From Hyphomicrobiales bacterium (GTDB lineage: Bacteria > Pseudomonadota > Alphaproteobacteria > Rhizobiales > Devosiaceae), in assembly GCA_900470445.1 (NCBI GenBank), contig UCAU01000026.1, positions 1 through 64,000 on the forward strand: a stretch of 64,000 nt of DNA. Direction: 5' to 3'. The notes below the pieces were generated by a model, which saw only the letters and a program-made list of their open reading frames with translations, was not told where the DNA came from and did not search any database. The stretch's first letter is position 1; each line of letters begins with the position of its first letter. Shown piece after piece: positions 15,236 to 17,635 of this stretch. The translations under genes and the position numbers were made by a program.

Positions 15236-15262
15236 AAAACGGCCGGGCACAAGGCCCGGCCG
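15236..15262 (-). terminator. Intrinsic terminator of the phytase-like gene
   Basis: Perfect 9-bp stem CGGCCGGGC/GCCCGGCCG with a five-base loop, 24 bases past the stop on the minus strand, followed there by TTTT. Confidence 0.8.
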
Positions 15263-15286: not shown

Positions 15287-17446
15287 CTAGAGCGCGCCGA
15301 TCGACCAGAAATAGGTCTCGCCCGAGCTGTCATCGACACCGTCATTGTCGGTGATGACATAGCCCACGCCGGCCGCATCCACGGCAAAGCTCTCCACCTT
15401 GTCGACCACATAGCCGTTGAGGCTCTTCAGATCAGGGATGAAGTCGCGGACCAATTCCTTGCTGACGACCGGCAGTTCGCCACCCAGCGCGGCGGCTTTG
15501 AGGTCAGCAACCGGCACGCGATAGAGCGCCTTGAGCTGGGCCTTGTCGCCAATCTGGTTGTCGCGCTCGACGATGTAGACATAGTCGCCATGCGCGGTGA
15601 TTTCCGACAGGCCAATCCAAGCGCCCTCTGCCGGGGTTTCGAGCCGATAGGCAACGGCGCCCCATTCCTCGGTCGAAGGCTTGTAGCTCACGAGCTTGAC
15701 CTGGCCCTTGGTATCATCCTTCCATTCGCGCTGAATGGCGATCCAGAGGGTCATATCGTCACCCTCGCCAATAGCGGTGATGCCTTCCGAACCCGAACGA
15801 ATTTCATTGGCCAGCAATTCGGCCGGGAACGGGATCTCGGCTTCGATTTCGCCTTCCGCGTTCACATGGAACAGCGCATGCGGCGAGAGCTCGGATGTAT
15901 CGCCCTCCGAAGCCAGCCAGAAGCCGCCTTCCCCGTCCAGCGTGATGCCTTCGAGATCAAGCTTCTGCGCCGGATGGCCGCCGCGGGTCACCACCGTCTT
16001 GGCAATGATGCGGGCCGGCTTGGACGTCGCGTCGATCGTGTAGATGGCCGGCTCGGCGCTCAGCGCGCTGTCGCTGACGGCATAAAGAATGCCGGGCTTT
16101 TCAGCATCGCCAACGGCGCCCGAAATGGCCGCCCAGCCGAACGGCAGACCGTTCTCGTCATTGTCCGAAACCAGCTGGGGATAGTCGGCTTCGCCCTCGG
16201 CCAGTTCATAGACCATCACATGGGAGCCAATGCCGCCATCTTCGCGCAGGTCAACTTCGTTGGCGGTCACGATCAGATTGCGGGCGGGAATGGCGGTGAT
16301 GCCCTCTGGCGAAATGCCCGACGGGATGGTCTGCACATATTCCGGCTCGGCGCCGGTATCCTTGTAGATCGCGACGAGCGAAGAACGTTCTTCGACGACG
16401 AAGATATATTGCTGGTCGCCAAAGGTTGCGACTTCCAGACCTTCGGGCTCAACGCCCTTGTTGTTGCGCGCATCGGGATAATGGCCGAGGCGAGCGGCGT
16501 CGATATCGAGCGCATTGCCCGAGTCATAGACGACACTGCCGTCGCGGTTGAAAATCGAGAAACTGCGCGATCCACCATTCCAATCGCCCTCATTGGCCAC
16601 GACCAGGCGGTCGGCATCCAGCCACTTGATGGCATCGGGTTCACGCGGCACATCGCTCGTCTTGCCAGTGAAATTAAGCGCGCCGTCCTTCTTGGTATCG
16701 ACATTCTCGACCGAAACCGCGCCTGCGGAGAAGCCGCCAGTGACCGTACCGGTCTTGCCATCAATGATGGCAATCCAGTTGTTTTCCTGCAGGGTGACAG
16801 CGATTTCGTCATTGCCGTTGAAATCGACAAATTCGGGCTCCGGATCCTCGCCGCCGACATCGGCAATGCCGGTCAGCTCAACCGTCTTGAGGGTCTTGGC
16901 GGCAACGTCGAAAATCACGACGAAGCCAGCGGGCAGCTGCGGGAGATCGCCGTCATTGACCTCTTCGTCGCGTTCATTCTCGATGGCAACGGCAATCAGC
17001 GCGCCGGCCGCATTATGCGCCACCGAATCCGGCTGACCGCCCAGATCATATTCGGCGTCGACCGCCTTGCTGGCGATATCGACAACGACCAGCTTGCCCG
17101 AGGGCTCGACAAAGCTCTCCGAAGTATTGACGCCCACATAGGCCTTGTCACCAATGATGGTGACCGAAGTCGGCTCGCCATCGAGCGACAGGAAACCGAG
17201 ATTTTTGGGAGCCTTGGCGTCGGTCAGATCGACAAAGCCGATGCCGCCTGCCGGGCTGTCCGAATAAATAAGGGTCAGACCGTCATCACTGGCGGTGATG
17301 ATTTCAGCTGAGGTCGCCTCGGCGTCGGGCGCATTGAGCGCAACGGGGAAGCTGGCAATACGACTGAACACTTGTTCGGCATGGACCGAAACCACCGTCG
17401 CCAACAAGGCGGCCGTGAGTGCGGCAAGAAATTTCGTGGAATACAT
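15287..17446 (-). CDS. Secreted phytase-like beta-propeller protein (PHO regulated)
   Basis: A 719-residue protein with a Sec signal peptide (1-23). The N-terminal half reads as repeated beta-propeller blades (DGEPTSVTIIGDKAYVGVNT, GGQPDSVAHNAAGALIAVA and similar); the C-terminal half matches the 'esterase-like activity of phytase' family, with GVEPEGLEV, SGISPEGITAIP and DLEGITLDGEGGFWLASEGD repeats and several acidic clusters suited to metal binding. Phosphomonoester or phytate hydrolysis is likely, though the catalytic residues are not certain. A perfect PHO box lies 58 bases upstream and a terminator follows, so it is a single-gene, phosphate-starvation unit. Confidence 0.82.
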   Translation of the reverse strand: MYSTKFLAALTAALLATVVSVHAEQVFSRIASFPVALNAPDAEATSAEIITASDDGLTLIYSDSPAGGIGFVDLTDAKAPKNLGFLSLDGEPTSVTIIGDKAYVGVNTSESFVEPSGKLVVVDIASKAVDAEYDLGGQPDSVAHNAAGALIAVAIENERDEEVNDGDLPQLPAGFVVIFDVAAKTLKTVELTGIADVGGEDPEPEFVDFNGNDEIAVTLQENNWIAIIDGKTGTVTGGFSAGAVSVENVDTKKDGALNFTGKTSDVPREPDAIKWLDADRLVVANEGDWNGGSRSFSIFNRDGSVVYDSGNALDIDAARLGHYPDARNNKGVEPEGLEVATFGDQQYIFVVEERSSLVAIYKDTGAEPEYVQTIPSGISPEGITAIPARNLIVTANEVDLREDGGIGSHVMVYELAEGEADYPQLVSDNDENGLPFGWAAISGAVGDAEKPGILYAVSDSALSAEPAIYTIDATSKPARIIAKTVVTRGGHPAQKLDLEGITLDGEGGFWLASEGDTSELSPHALFHVNAEGEIEAEIPFPAELLANEIRSGSEGITAIGEGDDMTLWIAIQREWKDDTKGQVKLVSYKPSTEEWGAVAYRLETPAEGAWIGLSEITAHGDYVYIVERDNQIGDKAQLKALYRVPVADLKAAALGGELPVVSKELVRDFIPDLKSLNGYVVDKVESFAVDAAGVGYVITDNDGVDDSSGETYFWSIGAL

Positions 17447-17503
17447 GGATCAAGCCCCTGTTGAAGTCCAAGGCCTGCCCTAGGCCGCACGCATAAAACT
17501 TCG

Positions 17504-17521
17504 ATGACAGGGACATGACAG
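17504..17521 (-). promoter_or_regulatory. PHO box (PhoB binding site)
   Basis: On the minus strand two exact CTGTCAT repeats lie 11 bases apart (separated by GTCC), which is the consensus PhoB arrangement. A degenerate third repeat (GCGTCAC) lies one more 11-base step upstream. A T-rich -10-like segment (TTTTATG) follows at the expected distance toward the phytase-like gene. Confidence 0.85.
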
Positions 17522-17635
17522 TGCTGTGACGCCGCGCTCTTCTATACAGCGGGGCCTGCGCCACCTATATTGGACCGTGAACAAAAGAAGATTCGTCAAT
17601 ACCCCCACGGCGCAGCCAACTCCCGGCGCGACGTG

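Follow-up and report, generated by a model that had tools for sequence, protein, structure and literature searches.

A secreted tandem-propeller protein in a Devosia-type genome, probably a phosphoesterase of the Pho regulon

Described relatives and the locus

Psip1 and PhoX, both propeller proteins, belong to the phosphate-starvation response and have metal ligands in their active sites (PMC11098088). An atypical alkaline phosphatase of Nodularia (nsp7010), which carries the NCBI name 'esterase-like activity of phytase family protein', is described as strongly induced by phosphate limitation (PMC9846622; PMC3610870). For S. meliloti, SMc01907 is reported as PhoB-dependent and called a 'putative alkaline phosphatase' (PMC3596328), while SMc00620 is described as likely to be a phosphodiesterase of the phytase type that has many connections within the phosphate network (PMC8829014).

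The gene analysed here lies in a window of 64,000 nucleotides (the whole stretch of DNA under study) from a Devosia-type genome assembly (4.80 Mb, 108 contigs). Its reading frame, correctly placed in a preliminary description of this DNA (Table 1), lies between an AsmA-family gene, which follows it, and a UvrD-family helicase gene, which precedes it in divergent orientation. The closest named relative of its 719-aa product is found in Devosia sp. A8/3-2 (93 % identity), and a second genome of the same species holds a 97 % identical copy. We propose that the gene forms a single-gene unit of the Pho regulon and that its product is a secreted phosphoesterase, probably dependent on a metal, and put the probability of this reading at about 0.75.

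Table 1. Positions of the features of the locus within the window
Feature	Positions	Strand	Remarks
Gene of the secreted tandem-propeller protein (719 aa; Phytase-like, PF13449)	15287..17446	-	ORF and full-length relatives across many genomes
Putative signal peptide of the Sec type (residues 1-23, cleaved behind SVHA)	17378..17446	-	By eye
Predicted seven-bladed propeller of the N-terminal half (residues 25-417), distant choice-of-anchor I	16196..17374	-	Profile and model; blades hand-counted
Predicted C-terminal five-bladed Phytase-like propeller, residues 420-719	15290..16189	-	Profile and model; blades hand-counted
Perfect PHO box CTGTCAT-GTCC-CTGTCAT	17504..17521	-	57 nt 5' of ATG; conserved before most orthologs
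Upstream degenerate half-site GCGTCAC, 11-bp phase	17526..17532	-	Not conserved over orthologs
Downstream degenerate half-site GTTTTAT, 11-bp phase	17493..17499	-	Weak repeat in this register across 56 ortholog promoters after redundancy filtering
Intrinsic terminator: 9-bp GC stem, 5-nt loop, TTTT	15236..15262	-	Sequence and RNA fold

In S. meliloti Ak57, the ortholog (LZK74_22940; 64.6 % identity over 97 % of the query) is positioned after clpP-clpX-lon-hupB, and a PHO-like box that has 2 mismatches lies 81 nt ahead of its start. As SMc01905 is the LA (Lon) protease (PMC8175422), gene order and consecutive numbering indicate that SMc01907 is most likely the S. meliloti ortholog. SMc00620 was also considered as the ortholog and set aside, the S. 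meliloti ortholog following lon-hupB and thereby pointing to SMc01907. Pho regulation of this gene is hence not new, since it is already in print for the apparent ortholog SMc01907. The surroundings differ, in that LZK74_22940 lies 3' of hupB whereas the Devosia gene stands opposite uvrD. Record CP090106.1, titled S. meliloti Ak57 pSymB, is 3.7 Mb long, contains clpP-clpX-lon-hupB and looks like a mistitled chromosome.

The likeness of our protein to Psip1 and PhoX lies in the propeller fold and the phosphate-starvation response, and that to the Nodularia enzyme in the NCBI name and induction by phosphate limitation. Psip1 is six-bladed by its description (PMC11098088), and the PhoX profile has no match in the 719-aa protein, though the genome encodes a separate PhoX. 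It had been stated that the substrate is undescribed for this architecture. This holds insofar as no report of a substrate or a measured activity of the protein or an ortholog was found in the literature searched, in which few subscription papers were covered; however, the apparent ortholog already passes as a putative alkaline phosphatase and the Nodularia enzyme shares the NCBI name.

The gene was also said to have its own terminator, and a GC hairpin (15240-15262) followed by TTTT on the minus strand was indeed present behind it in both the MFE and the centroid fold. The 96-nt stretch is modestly more stable than its shuffles (z -1.6; equalled by 15/200). A consensus terminator scan missed this hairpin, and a consensus sigma-70 scan of the gene's strand returned no promoter before the 719-aa gene.

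The PHO box and its conservation

Upstream of the gene, CTGTCATGTCCCTGTCAT at 17504-17521 on the minus strand matches CTGTCAT-N4-CTGTCAT at 14/14 bases. Both this perfect box on the coding strand and a third degenerate repeat in phase had been described earlier; we recovered both and found one degenerate repeat on either side of the box. Two more register matches overlap the perfect box at 11-bp steps (17515-17532 and 17493-17510, 3 mismatches each). The 14/14 match occurs as a single copy in the whole 4.8-Mb assembly, where at most 2 mismatches are found at 22 sites, several of them within reading frames, and at 3 sites with the reversed pattern.

Boxes with at most 2 mismatches lie 45-58 nt before the likely starts of four other genes of the same genome (loci L003, L005, L014 and L016), for a solute-binding protein, a PIG-L deacetylase, a calcineurin-type phosphoesterase and a phosphorylase-like protein. 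Going by these upstream sequences, the four genes are likely to be further members of the Pho regulon. Boxes with 3 mismatches precede phoX (82 nt 5' of the likely start), a PstS-like gene (123 nt; 137 bits, under the NCBI cut-off of 206.6) and one of the two shorter PF13449 paralogs that the genome holds, a single-domain protein in a 433-aa frame (box 67 nt before the likely start, at 1170-1187 of locus L120). Taken singly, these three boxes are only suggestive, because about 0.5 % of the control windows, each 250 nt long, also contain one such match. At up to 4 mismatches, the second of the shorter PF13449 paralogs lacks a box. The PstS-like gene (G000:C31:128018-128959, locus L128) was the sole TIGR02136 find and is located on the window's contig, about 110 kb away.

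We then compared the promoters of orthologs, taking for each the best match within 250 nt upstream and scoring it by mismatches to CTGTCAT-N4-CTGTCAT. Of 66 loci, L077 was excluded from every promoter count as its 5' end is missing. Among the 65 named ortholog loci, 54 had at most 3 mismatches and 43 at most 2, compared with 0/65 for same-length stretches inside the gene; the reversed pattern, the letters of which are partly common with the true one, reached at most 3 mismatches in 17/65. When further loci of the same order were added and the starts better located, at most 3 mismatches were present in 73 of 91 promoters and at most 2 in 54, against 27 and 1, respectively, of 5070 random control windows. 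The box in the 73 positives ends 38-80 nt (median 55) before the start. Three loci (L030, L080 and L108) are outside this count, the motif used to locate the gene being unmatched; L030 and L080, with 3 and 2 mismatches, were kept in the 65-locus count and in the uvrD count below.

In a later draw over the phylum, there was a box in 14/23 promoters (controls, 23/2438) and none in the other 9. Twenty-three of the 27 new loci were used, L156-L158 (two-piece matches) and L159 (partial) being left out. Within the window's family, 24/29 promoters had a box and 5/29 had none; these 29 are the best of the 79 matches, besides the own genome, and all 29 were used. The ortholog sets share species (L085 and L090, for instance, have contigs of equal length) and do not amount to independent samples.

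Not every promoter has the box: 18 of the 91 show 4-6 mismatches. Named misses include both Bauldia, Vannielia (5 mismatches each), Pseudovibrio, Veronia (4 each), an Atribacteria-labelled MAG and Paroceanicella (6 each) and P. denitrificans (4), and there are misses inside Devosia as well (D. elaeis, 5; D. marina and D. indica, 4 each). The boxes of L136/L137 and of L152/L153 are near-identical, and a redundancy filter keeps 56 of the 73 promoters. In these 56, the 14 box positions are prominent and a weak third repeat is visible downstream (+22 to +29), while the upstream repeat shows no conservation. A conserved promoter box of 7-bp direct repeats in 11-bp phase, the hallmark used for the Pho regulon, is thus present. 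The preliminary description would have been overturned had the site not been conserved in orthologous promoters; it is kept in most, although not in all (73/91 versus 27/5070 controls). With the reported PhoB dependence of SMc01907 (PMC3596328), this conservation strongly supports control of the 719-aa gene by phosphate starvation.

An actinobacterial ortholog on a plasmid of Streptomyces sp. SGAir0924 (L129; 40.5 % identical) has the same arrangement with a different half-site. Its promoter lacks a CTGTCAT-type box and carries instead a Streptomyces-type PHO repeat, GTTCGCC-CCCC-GTTCACC (2800-2817, CDS at 2887), which is 69 nt 5' of the start and has 1 mismatch to the S. coelicolor PHO motif GTTCACC (PMC4415409). 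This is a single case. The site also falls within the control windows taken from Streptomyces, and by our reckoning the 34/2000 windows with 1 mismatch represent that very site.

Because the intergenic stretch is shared, the box could belong to the divergent UvrD-type helicase gene and stand before the 719-aa gene by accident; indeed, both genes are divergent across this stretch at all 29 loci from the window's family. However, a box precedes the ortholog of the 719-aa gene in 47 of the 55 named loci in which the fetched DNA has no uvrD match, and its orientation follows the coding strand of the 719-aa gene. We therefore reject ownership by uvrD as scarcely credible. Elsewhere the box lies 3' of hupB (S. 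meliloti, 2 mismatches), metB (Aminobacter, 2) or dctP (P. liaowanqingii, 3), and other annotated upstream neighbours are speB (box with 4 mismatches) and an OsmC-family gene (6).

Domains, predicted fold and the conserved polar face

The preliminary description combined propeller blades with a phytase-esterase-like half, and the profile searches agree with it. Residues 438-702 belong to PF13449 (185.1 bits; Pfam gathering cut-off, 27.6). The N-terminal half is, by its sequence, a distant relative of choice-of-anchor I (NF038117) and falls outside this family by the cut-off rule (104.5 bits; NCBI cut-off, 300; best stretch, residues 292-397). All 30 aligned relatives match PF13449, all 30 match NF038117 (E value up to 0.001) and 24 match PF22494. 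The alignment contains 30 chosen sequences, with many close relatives left unused and L061 and L081 excluded for stop codons; L071 was left out of the C-domain alignment. The only Pfam matches at E values up to 1 were PF13449, Gmad1 and LVIVD, with neither PhoX (PF05787) nor the classical beta-propeller phytase profile among them. In a Synechococcus elongatus control genome, NF038117 matches and PF13449 does not; an atypical alkaline phosphatase of Synechococcus was reportedly described by Ray et al. in 1991.

This domain composition bears on the reading that the protein is a true phytase with inositol hexakisphosphate as its main substrate. The name of the Pfam family, the many relatives in soil and plant-associated genera and the suggestion that S. 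meliloti SMc00620, a gene discussed for its part in the phosphate response, may encode a phytase (PMC8829014) would all suit such an enzyme. However, PF13449 is not accompanied by any other phytase profile at E values up to 1, and the published label of the apparent ortholog is putative alkaline phosphatase (PMC3596328); we regard a dedicated phytase as decidedly unlikely.

The predicted structure has a pLDDT of 90.0 for the whole protein and 91.5 for the C-domain alone. For the N-domain, WD40 and YncE propellers are the nearest folds (Z about 34-35). Foldseek and VIA-align runs on the full model returned mainly WD40/YncE-like propellers, which led us to model the C-domain separately. Its best fold match is the C-domain of E. 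coli YjiK (Z 21.5, 221 residues, rmsd 2.7), followed by glutaminyl cyclases (Z 19-20), neither of which are phosphatases. Behind them comes a broad tie at Z of about 14-16, with calcium-activated nucleotidase (14.8) and paraoxonase (14.7) among its members; the first Foldseek match is an uncharacterised putative hydrolase. PhoX is absent among the best 50 C-domain fold matches listed, which is uninformative either way. Searched with the protein sequence alone, solved structures gave no match at E values up to 1. The alignment profile reached hydrazine synthase beta (E value 0.0002, residues 45-149), with others at 0.06 or worse, and the C-domain profile reached YjiK at best (0.059). No phosphatase was among the solved structures reached by the single sequence, the alignment profile or the C-domain profile.

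In the alignment, the conserved polar residues lie mainly on one side of the propellers. Counting residues conserved in at least 95 % of the alignment as near-invariant, and with position classes that we assigned ourselves, near-invariant polar residues occupy 54 of 144 top-face positions compared with 6 of 198 on the opposite face over all twelve blades; for acidic residues, the numbers are 30 and 3. The conserved polar positions cluster near where strand A begins and where strand B ends. In the N-domain, P-[E/D/T] opens strand A in 6/7 blades, and the blades of the C-domain start with S442, E499, E554, S614 and E685, each conserved in at least 90 %. Every blade of both propellers contributes at least one near-invariant acidic residue to this face, which also holds basic and amide residues.

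The blade starts of the C-domain raise the possibility that the five-bladed domain works like calcium-activated nucleotidase (SCAN, apyrase). We take SCAN to be five-bladed with central S-E-E-S-E calcium ligands, an order that S442, E499, E554, S614 and E685 reproduce, and SCAN aligns to the C-domain with Z 14.8 over 217 residues (rmsd 3.6). Against this, Z values near 14-15 are common to many unrelated propellers in the same list, and a nucleotidase-like mechanism appears unlikely to us. An apyrase profile search (PF06079) matched 0/289 genomes, but also 0/14 controls.

The conserved polar face would also fit binding without catalysis. The protein could then be Pho-regulated without being an enzyme: a secreted propeller whose task is to bind a metal or a phosphorylated ligand, or one that acts at the cell surface. 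The name 'choice-of-anchor I' points to a surface role of the N-domain, the closest folds are WD40/YncE propellers and YjiK, and no solved phosphatase is among the sequence relatives. On the other hand, no anchor domain was matched anywhere in the 719 aa with Pfam or NCBIfam, and phytase-like proteins are described as induced by phosphate limitation in Nodularia (PMC9846622) and a diatom (PMC7283521). A stretch reminiscent of the C-domain of the Streptomyces ortholog (35-41 % identity, about 100-125 residues) further occurs in Deinococcus plasmid proteins, 16 of whose 18 records (H76-H93) are annotated as glycerophosphodiester phosphodiesterases, which also speaks for an enzyme; by annotation these proteins are different overall, and the match covers part of the phytase-like domain. 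Taken together, we find a non-enzymatic role quite unlikely.

Proposed function, distribution and significance

Family, regulation and conserved residues suggest phosphatase activity, in line with the secreted phosphoesterase that we favour, in which the metal, the catalysis and the substrate class are putative. Under phosphate scarcity, phosphorylated PhoB would bind the 11-bp direct repeats within 17493-17532 and activate transcription of the single-gene unit, by analogy with the PhoB-dependent induction published for the apparent ortholog. The 719-aa protein looks Sec-exported from its N-terminal sequence and, once outside, is predicted to fold as a seven-bladed plus a five-bladed propeller. 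Residues of the top face may bind a divalent metal, with calcium as the likeliest candidate, together with the phosphate group of an organic phosphoester; this ester would be hydrolysed outside the cytoplasm, releasing phosphate for uptake. The protein would be one phosphate-scavenging tool of several, because the genome also has PhoX and the two shorter PF13449 paralogs.

A bolder proposal, which we consider possible though doubtful, is that the twelve-blade protein represents a new class of secreted metal-dependent phosphatase with metal-binding acid rings in both propellers. If so, 'choice-of-anchor I', now named as part of surface proteins, would be an ancient enzymatic domain, and the PF13449 proteins, the cyanobacterial atypical alkaline phosphatases and the present Pho-regulon gene would form one family of propeller phosphatases that extends from the proteobacteria to the actinobacteria and has copies controlled by whichever PHO sequence is local.

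The gene was matched in 79/121 genomes of the window's family and in 41/150 genomes of its order (own genome and partial matches included in both counts), and it seems to be often gained or lost, even between close relatives. The 42/121 family genomes without a match include some that are incomplete. Three relatives were recovered in two pieces, which lie in different frames in L156 (frameshift-like), are separated by about 190 missing residues in L157 and fall inside one open frame in L158.

In soil and sea, growth is limited by how fast organically bound phosphate is set free, and phosphatase surveys usually count PhoA, PhoD and PhoX genes. If the protein is indeed a phosphatase, these surveys would miss a widespread gene, for which the clear Pho regulation should make a knockout and an assay straightforward.
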